Assembly (NCBI GenBank): GCA_902797035.1
Contig: CADBRH010000019.1
Span: 1-40,052, forward strand
Length of the DNA: 40,052 bases
Direction: 5' to 3'
Source: an uncultured Bacteroidia bacterium
GTDB lineage: Bacteria; Bacteroidota; Bacteroidia; Bacteroidales; UBA932
Shown here: piece after piece, positions 484-5,473 of the stretch
How positions within the stretch are numbered: the first letter of the stretch is position 1
Layout: each line of letters starts with the position of its first letter
Position numbers and translations under genes: made by a program
The notes under the pieces: model-generated
What the model was told of the DNA's origin: nothing
Databases searched by the model: none
What the model saw: only the letters and a program-made list of their open reading frames with translations

Positions 484-515
484 CAAAGTTAAGAATAAAA
501 AGACCCATTAGCAAA
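484..515 (-). promoter_or_regulatory. Bacteroidetes-type promoter of the EF-G-like gene
   Basis: Read on the minus strand, TTTG (512-515) is followed after 20 nt by TAACTTTG (484-491), a perfect match to the sigma-ABfr consensus TTTG-N19/20-TAnnTTTG. It lies about 50 nt upstream of the ATG at 432. The same TAACTTTG box followed by the same bases recurs upstream of the glycosyltransferase gene (10499-10506). Confidence 0.7.
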
Positions 516-702
516 AATTAGAATGATAAAAGTCCACCAGTTCCGGCCCGCCGAAGCCGGTCTCCTCGAAAACCAGTTTGTCAAGGGTCCGGGCGTCAGC
601 GCCGATAGCGGCGCATATCTCCTCGAAACTCAGATCCAGGTACACTTTGTCCCTGTCCATAGCACGCTCGAAAGCGGCGTAATCTTCCATCAACTTTTCC
701 AT
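508..702 (-). CDS. Small uncharacterised protein, possibly HTH-like
   Basis: The reading frame encodes about 64 residues beginning MEKLMEDYAAFERAMDRDKV. The frame stays open upstream to 762, but that extension runs into the palindromic element at 721-836, so the ATG at 702 is preferred. The protein is acidic and predicted helical. The segment from LSFEEICAAIG to TLDKLVFEETGF has the spacing of a helix-turn-helix, as in short Bacteroidetes proteins that resemble the DNA-binding part of AraC/XRE regulators; this is a resemblance only. Its 3' end overlaps the -33 element of the EF-G-like promoter. The structured element upstream is the same type as the one before the Mrp gene. Confidence 0.5.
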   Translation of the reverse strand: MEKLMEDYAAFERAMDRDKVYLDLSFEEICAAIGADARTLDKLVFEETGFGGPELVDFYHSNFC

Positions 703-720
703 TCTTATTTCTTTTTCCGT

Positions 721-836
721 GGCAGGTATGGCCCCTCTAGGAACCACTGCCACCCTCGGCACGTTAAGAGGGGGGACCGGAGCGAAGCGAGCGGTGGGGC
801 CGCGAAGCGGCGGTTCCGGAGGGGCGCATACCTGCC
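721..836 (-). promoter_or_regulatory. Palindromic structured element, copy 1 (candidate leader RNA or mobile palindrome)
   Basis: The outer arms 721-745 and 812-836 are complementary over about 23 of 25 positions (outermost 10 bp perfect: GGCAGGTATG / CATACCTGCC). Inside lie two blocks shared with copy 2 at 4284-4399: plus-strand 801-816 (16/16 identical) and 741-772 (31/32 identical). The stretch between them differs but is itself hairpin-like (ACCG...CGGT). On the minus strand the element ends 18 nt before the ATG at 702, so it would lie in the leader of that gene. Confidence 0.7.
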
Positions 837-853
837 GCGAATATTAAAAGATA

Positions 854-945
854 AACCAAAAGTTAAGGTGGCAGGGAAGGGGTATATGGCGAATTATTTC
901 TGTATTTTATCGAAAAGATGTGTTTATTATTAACTTTTGGTTAAT
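854..945. repeat. 13-bp inverted repeat in the XRE gene upstream region
   Basis: AACCAAAAGTTAA (854-866) is repeated in inverted orientation as TTAACTTTTGGTT (930-942), with 63 AT-rich bases between. The right copy is also part of a smaller palindrome, ATTAAC-TTTTG-GTTAAT (929-945). Each copy carries a TAACTTTTG box facing outward, resembling a -7 element with one extra base, so divergent promoters or operator sites of the adjacent XRE regulator are possible. No gene is seen between 840 and 1017. Confidence 0.5.
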
Positions 946-1017
946 GGTGACAACTTTTCGTTTATCGGAATAGCGCCCGGCGATAGATATTTTCGCGTCT
1001 GAAGAAAACAGACCAAG

Positions 1018-1449
1018 ATGGATCCGGAGACGATAATGGACGAAAGCACGATCAGGGAGAACTTGAGGAAAGCCAGGGAAGAGCGCGGCTTCACGCAGGC
1101 AACCATGGCGGACACCCTCGACATCTCTGTGACAGCGTACCAGAAAATCGAGAGCGGCAAGACAAGAATCCTCAACAAGAACTTCTCAAGATGCGCCGAG
1201 GCGCTTGGCGTGTCCATGTCCGAACTTGTCAACGGATTCGTTCCCGTGAAGGACGCGGCGGAGACATTCGCCGACATGAAAGAGTCCTACGGTATGAAAC
1301 TGCGTGTCCAGGAGAACGGCTACCTGATGGAGATACAGCGCAGGGACCGGGAAATCGAGCGCCTGAACGAGATCATCAAGGACAAGGATGTGGCCATCGA
1401 GTCCCAGAAGATGCTGATCGACCAACTGATGAGCCGGTTCAAGGATTGA
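1018..1449 (+). CDS. XRE-family helix-turn-helix regulator with C-terminal coiled coil
   Basis: This is a 143-residue DNA-binding protein. Residues about 10-66 form a Cro/C1-type HTH (LRKAREERGFTQATMADTL ... TAYQKIESGK ... ALGVSMSELV). Residues about 88-140 form a charged heptad-rich helix (IQRRDREIERLNEIIKDKD), probably a coiled-coil dimerisation tail. Target and ligand are unknown. The ATG at 1018 is used here; the in-frame ATG at 1036 (MDESTIREN), preceded by GGAG, is equally plausible and would give 137 residues. It lies 38 nt upstream of rnhB on the same strand. Inverted repeats at 854-945 are candidate autoregulatory sites. Confidence 0.85.
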   Translation: MDPETIMDESTIRENLRKAREERGFTQATMADTLDISVTAYQKIESGKTRILNKNFSRCAEALGVSMSELVNGFVPVKDAAETFADMKESYGMKLRVQENGYLMEIQRRDREIERLNEIIKDKDVAIESQKMLIDQLMSRFKD

Positions 1450-1487
1450 CTTCTTTTTGATTATATTCGCGGAAAACAGGTCAGGTT

Positions 1488-2108
1488 ATGCCGCGGGAAA
1501 ACTCCTTGCTCCAATATCTGAAGGCCGGAAGGCTTGAGGCGGGCTGCGACGAGGCCGGGAGAGGTCCTCTCGCGGGACCGGTTTACGCGGCGGCGGTGAT
1601 CCTTCCCGAGGACTTCCGCCACCCTCTCCTGAACGATTCCAAACGAATGAGCGAGAAAGACAGGGACACGCTGCGACCCATCATAGAGAAGGAGGCGGTG
1701 GCGTGGGCCGTGGAGGCCGTGCAAGCGGATGAGATTGACAGGCTGAATATTCTCTGGGCCTCTGTTACCGGAATGCAACGAGCTGTGCTCCAGTTGGTTC
1801 CGAGACCAGACTTCCTCCTTATCGACGGCAACAAGTTCCGCCCTTTCGAGGATTTCGGTTTCAACTCTTACAAGACAGTGGTCCACGGCGACGCCACCTT
1901 CGCGTCGATAGCGGCGGCCTCCGTCCTGGCGAAGACCCACCGGGACGAGAAGATGCGCGCGCTGGCCCTTGAATATCCCCAATACGGCTGGGACCGCAAT
2001 TTCGGATACCCCACAAAAGAGCACATCGAGGCCTTGAGGAAATACGGGCCCACCCCCTATCACCGCCGCTCTTTTCACCCAAAAGAGCTTGAACCTTCGT
2101 TATTTTGA
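1488..2108 (+). CDS. rnhB: Ribonuclease HII
   Basis: RNase HII cleaves the RNA strand of RNA-DNA hybrids and starts removal of single ribonucleotides misincorporated in DNA; it is cytoplasmic and needs a divalent metal. The protein is 206 residues, normal for the family. The signature GCDEAGRGPLAGPV gives D21 and E22. LLIDGNKF supplies D113 and HGDATFASIAAASVLAK supplies D135, completing the DEDD metal site. A C-terminal YHRRSF segment is typical. The ATG at 1488 puts the DEAGRG motif at the expected distance from the N-terminus. The likely promoter of the next gene overlaps its 3' end. Confidence 0.96.
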   Translation: MPRENSLLQYLKAGRLEAGCDEAGRGPLAGPVYAAAVILPEDFRHPLLNDSKRMSEKDRDTLRPIIEKEAVAWAVEAVQADEIDRLNILWASVTGMQRAVLQLVPRPDFLLIDGNKFRPFEDFGFNSYKTVVHGDATFASIAAASVLAKTHRDEKMRALALEYPQYGWDRNFGYPTKEHIEALRKYGPTPYHRRSFHPKELEPSLF

Positions 2109-2117
2109 TTATTTTTG
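2088..2117 (+). promoter_or_regulatory. Probable promoter of the S46 peptidase gene
   Basis: TATTTTTG (2110-2117) matches the Bacteroidetes -7 box TAnnTTTG; CTTG (2088-2091) is a one-mismatch -33 element at 18 nt. It lies at the end of rnhB and about 30 nt before the ATG at 2149. Confidence 0.5.
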
Positions 2118-2148
2118 TAGAACCAACAAGACATTTATCACAGAAAAG

Positions 2149-4281
2149 ATGAAAAGAATACTTTGCTCAATCGCCGCCGTCCTTCTCATAGCGACGAGCG
2201 CGGTGGCCGACGAGGGAATGTGGCTTCTTCCCCTCATCCAGAAACTAAACGCCGAAGCCATCAAGGATCTGGGCTGCAGGCTCACTCCCGAACAGATCTA
2301 TAGCGTCAACCACTCGTCCCTCAAGGACGCCATCGTCAGCCTTGGCGGTTGCACCGCCGAGATGATCTCCGACCAGGGACTCATGGTGACCAACCACCAC
2401 TGCGGCTACGGCACCATCCAGAGACTCTCCACTGACGAGCACAACTATCTCGAGGACGGTTACTGGGCGATGAGCAGGGACCAGGAGCTCCCGGCCCCCG
2501 GAATGACCGCGACCTACCTGATCAGCATGACCGACGTGTCCGACGCGATGAACAAGGCCGAGGACCAGAACGCCGTCAGGCAGGCCCTCACCCAGGCCGC
2601 TCAGCAGAGCAATCCCAATTGCCGTGTCATGGTGACCTCCTTCTACAACGAGAACGTCTGGTACCTGATCGTCTCCAAGACCTACACCGACGTTCGTTTC
2701 GTCGGCGCCCCTCCGGCATCTGTCGGAAAGTTCGGCGGCGAGACCGACAACTGGATGTGGCCCCGCCATACCGGTGATTTCTCAATGTTCCGCGTCTATG
2801 CCGGTCCTGACAACGAGCCGGCCGCCTATTCTCCGGACAACAAGCCCTATGTCCCCGCCCAGTCCCTCAAGGTCTCCCTCAGGGGAATCAAGGAAGGCGA
2901 CTATTCCATGATCATGGGATATCCGGGCAGCACCCAGAGGTTCCAGACCGAGGCCCAGCTCAAGTCCATGCTTGACCGCCAGGGTGTCTCCATCGACGCC
3001 AGGACTCTCCGCCAGGACATCATGTGGAAGTGGATGGAGAAGGACCCCTCGATCCGTCTGAAGTACGCCAGCAAGTACGCCGGCAGCGCCAACGGCTGGA
3101 AGAAGTGGCAGGGTGAGAGGCTCGCTTTCAAGAACCTCGGCATCATCGAGAAAGAGCAGAAGAAAGAGGCTGACTTCATGAACTGGGTCGGTAAGAACAA
3201 GAAGCGCCAGGCTAAGTACGGCGACGCCCTCGCGAAAATCAAGGAGGGAGTCGAGTCCAACACCACAGCCCTTGACGTCCAGCTGATCGGCGAGACCGTG
3301 GCCAATATCGAGCTCATGGGATTCGCCTCCGGCATCCAGAACACCATGGCCATGGCCCTGAGGAACGGTCAGGATTCCGCCTCCGCCCTCAAGACCGCCG
3401 TCGCCGCCCAGGAGAGAAGGTACCAGGACTACTACGAGCCCCTCGACAGGGAGGAGGCCGCCGCCCTTCTGAAATATTACCGCGAGAAGGCCAAGCCTGA
3501 GTATTATCTCGTGAGCCTGCCTGAGGATTTCGCCACTCTCGACATCGACAAGTTCGTCAATGACATCTATGACAACAGCGTCTTCACCTCCCTCGACAAG
3601 CTCAAGGCCGCCGTGGAGGAGAAGGGCTTCAAGGCCGTCACCAACGATCCTGTCAACCAGCTGACCAACTCCATCCTGATGACCTACGCCAAACTCGGCG
3701 CCGGCGGAATGGGTGCCGGAGGCCGCAGGCCGGGCGGCAACGCAAACCCGGGACAGCAGCTGATCAGGGAAGGCTCCAAGGCTTTCACCGCCGGTCTGCT
3801 TGAGTGGCAGAAGGGCAAGGCCACCTATCCTGACGCCAACTCCACCATGAGGTTGACCTACGGAAGCGTCCTGCCTTATTCCCCGAAAGACGCCGTGACC
3901 TACAACTACTTCACCACCCTGAAGGGAGTCATGGAGAAAGAGGATCCGGACAACTACGAGTTCAAGGTCCCCGCCAAACTCAAGCAGCTCTATGAGGCCA
4001 AGGACTATGGCCAGTACGCCATGGCCGACGGCAACCTGCCCGTCTGCTTCCTCACCAACAACGACATCACCGGCGGCAACTCCGGAAGCCCTGTGCTCGA
4101 CGCTGACGGCGCCCTCATCGGCCTCGCGTTCGACGGCAACTGGGAGAGCATGTCCAGCGACGTGATGTTCGAGCCCGATCTCCAGAGGTGCATCTGCGTC
4201 GACATCCGCTACGTCCTCTTCCTGATGGACAAGCTCGGCGGCGCCGGCTACCTCCTGAATGAGATGAATATCTTGAAATAA
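2149..4281 (+). CDS. S46 family dipeptidyl-peptidase, DPP7-like
   Basis: This is a secreted serine peptidase that removes dipeptides from peptide N-termini in the periplasm; in Bacteroidetes it supports amino-acid catabolism. The ATG at 2149 begins a clear signal peptide (MKRILCSIAAVLLIATSAVA), leaving 710 residues, the usual S46 length. The triad is inferred as H84 (VTNHHCGYG), D210 (RHTGDFSMF) and S645 (GGNSGSPVL). The residue 18 positions after the serine is Gly (FDGNWE); DPP11 enzymes, specific for Asp/Glu, carry Arg there and DPP7 carries Gly, so broad hydrophobic specificity is predicted. A Gly-rich insert (GAGGMGAGGRRPGGN) sits near residue 525. The palindromic element copy 2 starts 2 nt after its stop. 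Confidence 0.95.
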   Translation: MKRILCSIAAVLLIATSAVADEGMWLLPLIQKLNAEAIKDLGCRLTPEQIYSVNHSSLKDAIVSLGGCTAEMISDQGLMVTNHHCGYGTIQRLSTDEHNYLEDGYWAMSRDQELPAPGMTATYLISMTDVSDAMNKAEDQNAVRQALTQAAQQSNPNCRVMVTSFYNENVWYLIVSKTYTDVRFVGAPPASVGKFGGETDNWMWPRHTGDFSMFRVYAGPDNEPAAYSPDNKPYVPAQSLKVSLRGIKEGDYSMIMGYPGSTQRFQTEAQLKSMLDRQGVSIDARTLRQDIMWKWMEKDPSIRLKYASKYAGSANGWKKWQGERLAFKNLGIIEKEQKKEADFMNWVGKNKKRQAKYGDALAKIKEGVESNTTALDVQLIGETVANIELMGFASGIQNTMAMALRNGQDSASALKTAVAAQERRYQDYYEPLDREEAAALLKYYREKAKPEYYLVSLPEDFATLDIDKFVNDIYDNSVFTSLDKLKAAVEEKGFKAVTNDPVNQLTNSILMTYAKLGAGGMGAGGRRPGGNANPGQQLIREGSKAFTAGLLEWQKGKATYPDANSTMRLTYGSVLPYSPKDAVTYNYFTTLKGVMEKEDPDNYEFKVPAKLKQLYEAKDYGQYAMADGNLPVCFLTNNDITGGNSGSPVLDADGALIGLAFDGNWESMSSDVMFEPDLQRCICVDIRYVLFLMDKLGGAGYLLNEMNILK

Positions 4282-4283
4282 AC

Positions 4284-4399
4284 CTTCCGGAAGGAGCAGA
4301 CCTTCTTGAACCGCCGCTTCGCGCCCCCCCCAAAGGGCCCCTCCCTCTTAACATGCCGAGGGTGGCAGTGGTTCAAGGAGGTCTCTCCATTCCGGGAAG
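4284..4399 (+). promoter_or_regulatory. Palindromic structured element, copy 2 (candidate leader RNA or mobile palindrome)
   Basis: It fills nearly the whole gap between the S46 gene and the Mrp gene. Outer arms 4284-4312 and 4370-4399 pair over about 27 bp with small bulges, yet their sequence is unrelated to the arms of copy 1 apart from the innermost GAACC/GGTTC. The conserved core blocks are 4308-4323 and 4343-4374; within the second, CCCTC and GAGGG can pair, and TGCC can pair with GGCA. A variable GC-rich hairpin (CCC-AAA-GGG) lies between the blocks. The element ends 9 nt before the ATG at 4409, with the same orientation to the gene as copy 1. Confidence 0.7.
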
Positions 4400-4408
4400 A
4401 ACAACATC

Positions 4409-5473
4409 ATGGAAGAAAAAAAGATAATGGGGTGGCTGCGGGAGGTTGTACATCCCGCGAAGGGGAGCAAGGATATAGTGGAGCTGGGGATAGTCGAGGC
4501 CATCTCCGTCGAAGGGGACAAGGTGACGGTCACCCTGGCCTTCCCCAAGCGGCGCGACCCTTTGACCGAATATCTTGTCGGGGCCACGAAGGCCACGATC
4601 ATCCGCAACGCCCCCGCCGGTACCGAGGTGGAGGTGAAGACTATCGTGAAGGACGAGACCCCCAAAAAGAAGCCCGGGTTGGATCTCGGTCTCGAGGAAC
4701 TCAACAACGTCCGCCACATCATCGGGATAGCCTCCGGCAAGGGCGGTGTCGGGAAATCCACTGTCGCCGTCAACCTGGCCGTGGCGCTCGCCCGGCTCGG
4801 CTACAAGGTCGGCCTCGCCGACGCCGATGTCTATGGGCCTTCCGTCCCTCTCATGACCGGAACCGGCGACGAGGTTCCTGGAGCCGAGGAGACGGGAGAG
4901 GGAAAGGAGGTTATCCTCCCCATCGAGAAATACGGGGTCAAATGGATGTCGATCGGCTATTTCGCGGAGCCTGGGCAGGCCCTGATCTGGAGAGGCCCCA
5001 TGGCATGTAACGCTCTCAAGCAGATGATCCTTCAGGTTCGTTGGGGAGTCCTTGACTTCCTGCTCATCGACATGCCTCCGGGCACCGGGGACATCCACAT
5101 ATCCCTCGTGAACGACATCCCGATGGAGGGCGCTCTCATCGTGACCACGCCTCAGGACGTCGCCCTGTCGGACGTTGAGAAAGGAGTCAACATGTTCCGC
5201 AACGAGAACATCAACAGGAAAATATTCGGCCTTGTCGAGAACATGGCCTGGTTTACTCCGGAGGAACTCCCTGACAACAAGTATTTTATATTCGGCAAAG
5301 ACGGCGGTCGCAGGATGGCGGAGAAGTACGGTATCCCCCTCCTAGGGCAGATCCCCATCGTTCAAAGCGTACGTGAGGGAGGCGACTCGGGTGAGCCATC
5401 CGCCCTCTCAACACGCCCCGACGCCCTCGCCTTCATCGACCTGGCCCGCGCCCTCGTCCAAGCCGCGGGGTGA
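4409..5473 (+). CDS. Mrp/NBP35-family P-loop ATPase (Fe-S cluster carrier type)
   Basis: Mrp/ApbC proteins bind ATP and are implicated in carrying Fe-S clusters to target enzymes in the cytoplasm. The 354-residue protein has an N-terminal MIP18/DUF59-like domain (residues about 5-85, with HPAKGSKDIVELGIV) and a deviant Walker A motif GKGGVGKST at 110-118 (SIMIBI class), then LADADVYGPS, LIDMPPGTGD and TTPQDVALSD. The CPxC motif that bridges a cluster in many homologues is absent: the equivalent segment reads ENMAWFTPEELPDNKYFIFG. Bacteroidetes members often look like this. The ATG at 4409 is preferred over the in-frame ATG at 4427. Its stop is separated by one base from the convergent lipoprotein gene. 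Confidence 0.92.
   Translation: MEEKKIMGWLREVVHPAKGSKDIVELGIVEAISVEGDKVTVTLAFPKRRDPLTEYLVGATKATIIRNAPAGTEVEVKTIVKDETPKKKPGLDLGLEELNNVRHIIGIASGKGGVGKSTVAVNLAVALARLGYKVGLADADVYGPSVPLMTGTGDEVPGAEETGEGKEVILPIEKYGVKWMSIGYFAEPGQALIWRGPMACNALKQMILQVRWGVLDFLLIDMPPGTGDIHISLVNDIPMEGALIVTTPQDVALSDVEKGVNMFRNENINRKIFGLVENMAWFTPEELPDNKYFIFGKDGGRRMAEKYGIPLLGQIPIVQSVREGGDSGEPSALSTRPDALAFIDLARALVQAAG

Follow-up and report, generated by a model that had tools for sequence, protein, structure and literature searches.

Two palindromes of 116 nt, copy 1 (positions 721-836, minus strand) and copy 2 (4284-4399, plus strand), stand close before two genes in the window examined here, the whole 40,052-nt stretch that was analyzed (positions 1 to 40,052 of contig CADBRH010000019.1, assembly GCA_902797035.1, from an uncultured bacterium of the Bacteroidales). 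They share a near-identical core between self-pairing arms, and the question they raise is whether they are leaders of the genes behind them or copies of something that moves. We conclude that they are copies of a dispersed mobile palindromic element and not leader RNAs. The element is probably a non-autonomous palindrome resembling the Rickettsia palindromic elements (RPEs), one that inserts whole and would thereafter have its arms recopied and its core inverted by template switching between the arms.

Two copies of a dispersed family

Both copies were confirmed at these coordinates in the window sequence. Their 32-nt core blocks (741-772, minus; 4343-4374, plus) differ at one position, a match given by none of 100 shuffles, and a 16-nt block, GAACCGCCGCTTCGCG, is common to both. 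The arms are unlike in sequence between the copies and pair with themselves within each, and folding of each 116-nt strand is far better than that of dinucleotide shuffles (z -5.8 and -6.0; 0 of 200 shuffles as good). A preliminary description of this DNA had claimed just this combination of a near-identical core with unrelated self-pairing arms, and the block match, the folds and the shuffles bear it out. It had also recognized no known riboswitch, in agreement with an Rfam scan of the window in which no family reached its gathering score. A tRNA or tmRNA reading was rejected, none being found.

The number of further copies excludes chance: a 24-nt core with up to 2 mismatches occurs at 21 places in the genome that holds the window, and a covariance model (R1, built from 48 of the 128 copies analyzed) matches that genome 30 times in a genus-level search and 27 times in a family-level search. 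Copy numbers are lower bounds, at most 35 (genus) and 30 (family) candidates having been scored per genome. Among 101 genomes of the genus, the model finds the element in 76, including this one, with up to 30 copies found per genome, and no match in 25; at the family level 24 of 119 genomes have it, and these belong to 8 of 25 genera. By core alone (up to 2 mismatches), 6 of 119 relatives have matches, all in the same genus. At least 113 stretches of contigs from public genomes contain the exact 24-nt core; their titles name Bacteroidales or Bacteroidia metagenome-assembled genomes (MAGs) or isolates, and among the matches listed most come from ruminants. Viral contigs gave no exact match to a 29-nt core pattern, and no earlier report of the element was recognized among the literature matches listed. 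The elements are mostly about 113-155 nt long; the model matches listed span about 106-176 nt, most of them 113-140 nt.

The comparisons below draw on 140 core matches found at up to 2 mismatches in loci L001-L131, with up to 3 mismatches used in later steps; 133 of these were distinct and had enough flanking sequence, 129 served for context, and 128 had a recognizable start of hairpin A. Three copies in one genome (L200, L204 and L208 in G142) have an enlarged hairpin B with about 40 extra nucleotides that are nearly alike in all three, and form a sub-family.

From the outside in, the element consists of an arm stem of about 26-28 bp and free sequence, hairpin A (GYCGC-TNC-GCGRC or a longer form), a C-rich linker, hairpin B (of ACCG..CGGT or CCC..GGG types) and the core, with consensus CCCTCT.A-xy-b-NGCC-GAGGGT-GGCN'-y'x'-GG, in which xy, N/N' and y'x' make up stem D with one bulged base, b. 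Copy 1 (model match G000:C19:718-839:-, E 9.1e-22) has by its fold a 5' arm, in element orientation, at 812-836, paired with the 3' arm at 721-745. Between them on the same minus strand lie hairpin A (799-811; GCCGC-TTC-GCGGC, from the fold and the covariation of this hairpin in the family), hairpin B (776-795; ACCG..CGGT, placed by the family alignment) and the core (741-772; CCCTC-TTA-AC-G-TGCC-GAGGGT-GGCA-GT-GG-TTC), identified by the block match and stem D covariation. This core includes stem D, the loop of which, GAGGG, is complementary to CCCTC, so that a pseudoknot may be possible on sequence grounds. Copy 2 (model match G000:C19:4285-4397:+, E 4.2e-17) has, all on the plus strand, a 5' arm at 4284-4312 and a 3' arm at 4370-4399 by its fold, hairpin A with a short hairpin B of CCC-AAA-GGG type at 4313-4342 (family alignment, row L003), and the core at 4343-4374 (block match), with A for G relative to copy 1 at the stem D bulge. 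Mini-hairpins of the form d(GCGNAGC) are unusually stable, but this carries no weight in our analysis.

Genomic setting and insertion within genes

In the window, both copies fold stably and end 9-18 nt before an ATG, and on this ground one could envision a cis-regulatory leader RNA of the downstream genes, a reading that the preliminary description had offered as new together with the statement that both copies face the same way relative to the next gene. That statement holds in the window and fails in general, as the site orthologous to that of copy 1 carries the element reversed in G104 (the same sequence as L040), L054 and L097. Of 129 copies scored with a crude open reading frame (ORF) caller, 51 lie in ORFs (24 on one strand, 27 on the other), and the remaining 78 occupy 30 convergent, 39 co-directional and 7 divergent gaps, plus 2 with one neighbor undetermined. 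A leader RNA is thus hardly credible, given the mixed orientation and setting, the many convergent gaps, the copies in coding sequence, the patchy occupancy and changing orientation at orthologous sites, and the lack of an Rfam match in the window.

The insertions within conserved genes are real. In-frame copies, in both orientations, are carried by 16 distinct host proteins, all of which match a Pfam or NCBIfam family at E≤1e-5, in some cases under the curated cut-off. The hosts include GH3 glycosidases, KsgA, IspH, PurH, MATE, aldehyde dehydrogenase, LL-diaminopimelate aminotransferase and UvrA, and further a GHMP kinase, cardiolipin synthase, Fmt, an RsmF-like methylase, a NapH-like ferredoxin protein and an E2 subunit. 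Translated in these 16 proteins, a forward copy gives ..PLNVPRVAVV.. and a reverse copy gives ..TTATLGTLRG.., apart from variants at single residues.

Other inserts accompany the element in several of these genes. The KsgA loop between YLL and LKAIEID (L327-L334, L046, L035) is a hot-spot, and in different species it holds, besides the element, at least two unrelated short repeats with the peptides TPLHPQGGLRGVPLRH and PSVILSEAKNL. A second in-frame repeat, with a peptide like SERSDAGSLRGTPLSPPRG, adjoins some in-gene copies (L057, L101, L123). IspH of the window's own genome (L347, G000:C79) carries a diverged, longer family member, and that of G042 (L345) seemingly only a remnant of the 5' arm. 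A position-exact analysis of the target gave no result because the IspH and KsgA loops are too variable.

Empty sites and spread

Relatives that lack the element at an orthologous site indicate how it arrives. Copy 2 lies in a 127-nt gap between an S46 peptidase gene (a TTG-extended ORF, 2089-4281, plus strand; PF10459, E 5.3e-222), which ends directly before it, and the gene of an Mrp/NUBPL-type P-loop ATPase (4409-5473, plus strand; PF10609, E 1.2e-86). In G042 and G017 (and, by coordinates, in G033) this gap is 0 nt, with TAA abutting ATG. The gap could be read at 14 of 30 loci, including that of the own genome; the element occupies it at 3 of these and another hairpin at 1, and at the other 10 it measures -2 to 9 nt. 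As the empty site has no arms, arms and core arrived together, and a reading of the arms as target site was rejected on the lack of both arms at the copy 2 empty sites and on the presence of related arms at different sites. At the copy 1 site, besides the reversed copies already named, G033 has a degenerate relic, G042 has a short GC-rich remnant but otherwise no element, and none was seen in G017, G137, G140 and G081.

Near-identical arms and copies at two sites in G145 (L214/L215), and arms common to L197 and L207 in G142, show recent spread with the arms included; among RUG14092 contigs, non-orthologous pairs reach an arm identity of 0.89. The many dispersed copies, the insertions in genes and the empty sites together support the alternative in the preliminary description of a mobile palindrome similar to repetitive extragenic palindromic (REP) sequences or miniature inverted-repeat transposable elements (MITEs).

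Two neighboring stretches may be recorded here. The small ORF downstream of copy 1 (508-702, minus strand; 64 aa) matches no Pfam family at E 1e-3, and the DNA of its region (521-705) has 73-80% identity in the relatives compared. At 880-1017, before a helix-turn-helix gene, repeated TTAACTTTTGGTT-like motifs recur in relatives and are perhaps the operator of that regulator.

Pairing and covariation

Pairing is kept. In 125 of 133 copies the arms pair better than in any of 20 shuffles, and all three variable pairs of stem D are Watson-Crick in 179 of 203 distinct pattern-fitting copies, compared with 92 when shuffled. Stem D is AC/GT in 134 copies and otherwise TG/CA, TA/TA, CA/TG, GC/GC or CG/CG; counted by distinct version, it is fully paired in 6 of 18. 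For alignment A2, 59 of 128 copies passed a redundancy filter and an arm score of at least 14, and 48 of the 59 were aligned. In these 48 rows, a selection that favors pairing, 26 of 28 arm pairs have two-sided changes, 553 cells of the whole structure are changed two-sidedly compared with 174.5 after shuffling, and 88.5% of cells pair, compared with 62.4% when shuffled and 41-48% when slid. Outer arm positions 21-40 hold at most 0.10 bits in 70 of 124 copies, which were kept for dissimilar 3' arms and so lower any consensus. The proposal that the arms are random sequence was nonetheless rejected, as positions 5-20 have a weak purine/pyrimidine consensus.

The same pairing persists within orthologous sites, where it can be seen to change in place. 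In 27 orthologous pairs with no element in common and an arm identity of at least 0.55 (two of them, L013/L107 and L042/L051, with a misplaced 5' arm, kept in the count), we counted 95 two-sided changes against 42.3 expected, 60 of them from one Watson-Crick pair to another. Two-sided changes are also clustered, with 68 adjacent compared with 42.1 (sd 4.8) in 60 overlapping pairs. Over 32 nt, cores at orthologous sites differ by 1.7%, as compared with roughly 20% in the flanks.

Selection on a structured RNA, or on its DNA, could account for these results if mobility or function depended on a folded transcript or strand and compensatory mutation preserved the pairing of the arms for that reason. 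The strong two-sided variation in the arms and stem D and a core far more constant than its flanks would be expected of it. However, the core constancy is partly ascertained, the versions of stem D are fully paired in only a third of cases, the two-sided changes come in clusters, and G.U is not favored on the core strand. Isolated arm mismatches on that strand, from 106 of the 128 copies, comprise A.C 57, C.T 28 and C.C 21 as against G.T 33, A.G 8 and G.G 4 (106 vs 45), and a second set (57 of 66 rows, with near-duplicates and a few others left out) has the same bias (25 vs 9, p 0.009); both counts come from related copies and hence are not independent. This bias away from G.U, A.G and G.G means that the folding strand, if any, is the one opposite the core strand, and RNA selection acting on the core strand is disfavored. 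We regard selection on structure as somewhat unlikely.

The claim in the preliminary description that pairing and not sequence is selected thus stands in its first half only: pairing is kept, also within orthologous sites, but template switching, which requires no such selection, fits both the runs of two-sided change and the inversion of the core in place. It had likewise named random orientation together with absent covariation as the pattern that would tell against a structured RNA; the orientation is random, whereas the covariation is strong.

Orientation and arms at orthologous sites

Orthologous pairs among the 128 copies divide almost evenly into 57 of equal and 55 of opposite orientation, over 31 sites and with no conflict within a site. 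The arms score above the 99th percentile of background (8015 pairs) in 23 of the 57 equal pairs and in 18 of the 55 opposite ones; those 18 are spread over 11 sites. The arms were kept while the core was reversed at 3 sites by a strict count and at up to 11 by a liberal one. In the clearest case (L021/L056 versus L037), both junctions are the same and the arms are alike at 0.93, while the core runs the other way, and with it has moved an asymmetric mismatch of the inner arm.

Alternatively, tolerant gaps and loops could each have received the element several times, independently and facing either way, and the mix of orientations would then involve no inversion in place. The KsgA, IspH and E2 sites held different elements and repeats in different species, and in the S46-Mrp gap unrelated-armed members lie in opposite orientations in G024 (L136, E 5e-5) and G007 (L161, E 5e-9). 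In 37 of the 55 opposite pairs, the likeness of the arms stays outside the top 1% of background. The opposite pairs with arms above the 99th percentile speak against repeated insertion, as does the clearest case with its shared junctions and displaced mismatch; in the remaining pairs the arms are too different for inversion and second insertion to be told apart. Repeated insertion as the source of the mix is a possibility to be taken seriously, though we would not expect it to prove correct.

The E2 gene, looked up by protein regardless of the element, allows occupancy to be followed in one place. Of 30 genomes, 13 matched: the gene was recovered from 12 of them, truncated in one, and no more than an element-like stretch from G128. 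Forward copies occur in G000, G017, G137 and, degenerate, in G045, and a reverse copy in G033; G140, G099 and G048 have none. In the E2 linker of G042, G081 and G104 (L271, L272, L273) there is a reversed copy in which the core is replaced at the same place by a different palindromic repeat. That repeat begins TTCTTCACAAGCCGGCATCAGCCGG.

A candidate mobilizer

A Y1 HUH transposase is the leading candidate for the enzyme that moves the element, as suggested by co-occurrence: Y1_Tnp (PF01797) is found in 69 of 76 element-bearing but 9 of 25 element-free genomes (p 1.5e-7, taken over genomes regardless of phylogeny, kinship or completeness), while reverse transcriptase has no such co-occurrence (p 0.14). 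The searches for Y1, reverse transcriptase and element were assumed to cover the same 101 genomes, with unlisted genomes counted negative. Y1_Tnp-positive genomes of the genus hold 1-7 matches each, and those read (L240-L259) are mostly about 300-330 aa with HUH-like motifs. An element borne by a retron or reverse transcriptase was rejected, with no PF00078 match in the own genome (G000, 84% complete) and reverse transcriptase in 21 of 76 element-bearing genomes.

A further reading is an element of REP type, moved by a REP-associated tyrosine transposase (RAYT, Y1/HUH) through a folded single strand, with inversion part of the transposition cycle. The co-occurrence and a mismatch bias that points to one folded strand would fit such a system. 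RAYT genes, however, are described as always flanked by their REPs (PMC2817692), and here a copy is near only 2 of 30 Y1 loci (two of which overlap others, L232/L250 and L237/L257). Moreover, these elements are mostly 113-155 nt and also intragenic, unlike REPs, and one genome with 11 copies (G014, 70% complete) has no Y1 match. We consider a RAYT-driven cycle unlikely.

Discussion

The sequence of events that we consider probable for this element, which belongs to one family of gut and rumen Bacteroidales, begins with insertion of the whole palindrome between genes or in frame into loops and linkers of proteins, as the empty sites and host genes show. A long arm stem, free in sequence, closes hairpins A, B and D, the last with its one-base bulge and GAGGGT loop. 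After insertion, each arm would repeatedly serve as template for the other, and the core would occasionally be flipped where it lies, most likely through DNA-polymerase template switching between the inverted arms; the core may stay constant because each active copy must carry it for the mobilizing enzyme. Insertion, recopying and inversion would together give a near-constant core, site-specific self-pairing arms and, among orthologous copies, both orientations in about equal number. Template switching between inverted repeats is described as homogenizing arms and inverting spacers, reversibly and also within coding sequence (PMC8604942), it has been proposed to create and maintain stems (PMC8794818), and hairpin-loop inversions flanked by palindromes are reported as common in plastids (PMC2903610). 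Since it needs no selection on pairing, kept pairing is no proof of selection.

Several results weigh against this explanation. Spacers inverted by template switching are usually short, 2-5 bp in the yeast cases described (PMC8604942), as compared with roughly 60-100 nt here. The arms do not exceed the 99th percentile of background in 34 of the 57 equal pairs and 37 of the 55 opposite ones; matching the background by class leaves only 2 sites, to which the cross-class site L016/L047/L093 (arms 0.73-0.95) can be added. Elsewhere, a permissive site may have received separate insertions in either orientation, and the KsgA loop clearly tolerates several repeats that are not related. For copy 1, only L054 has similar arms (2.1% of background pairs score as high), those of L040 (76%) being unlike and those of L097 (8.8%) hardly like. 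The type of hairpins A and B agrees in 6 of 13 inverted kept-arm pairs versus 21 of 27 pairs of equal orientation, so that cores may at times be replaced as well. Two measures of covariation (pairs with two-sided change and further pair types) do not exceed shuffles, and the rarity of copies beside Y1 loci is a point against as well. No target-site duplication was seen at copy 2 or L214/L215, and exact empty sites are few. Finally, the genomes are drafts, many of them MAGs, and loci L019-L131 were fetched by the exact 24-nt core, so that core identity among them is partly ascertainment.

One could also envision a separate class of mobile DNA, working as a folded single strand (arms, three hairpins and a possible GAGGG-CCCTC pseudoknot) that is recognized by its clade-specific core, and whose own cycle of excision and insertion, in place of chance template switching, rebuilds the arms as near-perfect complements and re-lays the core either way. 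It would imply a palindrome that is actively maintained and reversible even in essential genes, but we think it quite improbable.

Protein-coding mobile palindromes, known from Rickettsia, thus also occur in a large gut bacterial lineage, with ispH, ksgA, purH, uvrA and fmt among the genes that carry them. What looks like an "RNA" motif with strong covariation can be palindromic mobile DNA, and covariation alone is not proof of a functional RNA. The many natural orthologous sites offer a test of a disputed point, whether paired changes in stems reflect selection on structure or template switching, and if inversion in place is true, rates of template switching in bacteria become measurable from genomes.

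Comparison with known systems

Copies of REP/RAYT elements and of MITEs have ends in common. In the element described here it is the middle that the copies share, while the arms differ, and no target duplication was seen. REP/RAYT sequences and bacterial MITEs (ERIC, Correia, RUP) are otherwise comparable, being small, non-autonomous, stably folding palindromes with some in-frame gene fusions, as described in PMC2229807 and PMC2817692. A REP is defined as an extragenic palindrome of 20-40 bp (PMC3733652), whereas the present element is too long, occurs within genes and lies at only 2 of 30 Y1 loci; its terminal inverted repeats are not common to the copies, as they would be in a MITE of a DDE transposon. 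Nor does it resemble a riboswitch, having no fixed orientation or position upstream of genes and, in the window, no match to a described RNA family.

Template-switched yeast genes and plastid hairpin-loop inversions share with the element homogenized arms and reversible inversion of a spacer, also in coding sequence (PMC8604942, PMC2903610). The hairpins described there are native and occur singly, and their spacers measure 2-5 bp in yeast and 25-27 bp in trnH-psbA, in contrast to a dispersed mobile element at many sites with roughly 60-100 nt. The coding palindromes of Nematomorpha mitochondria are likewise long in-gene inverted repeats with complementary arms for which template switching has been proposed; the portion of that report consulted (PMC6649704) notes no common core or dispersed mobile family, unlike what is found here.

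The closest likeness is to RPEs, described as 105-146 bp long, with a long stem-loop, dispersed, and present in frame in conserved protein genes as well as between genes (PMC2229807). Length, long stem-loop fold, dispersal and in-frame insertion in conserved genes are all found here, as is a terminal inverted repeat, which comprises 12 contiguous bp in the table of that paper and here arms of about 26-28 bp with no sequence common to the copies. RPEs are also reported to lose repeat identity over time (PMC6649704). The element thus appears to work like an RPE, although, as the likeness is one of description and not of RPE sequence, we do not claim membership. It belongs to another phylum; its arms vary by site yet stay complementary around a near-constant core with a clade-specific stem, and its orientation varies at orthologous sites. 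We conclude that this RPE-like palindrome of the Bacteroidales differs from the known kind in its site-specific complementary arms and in a core that has been turned in place at several sites.

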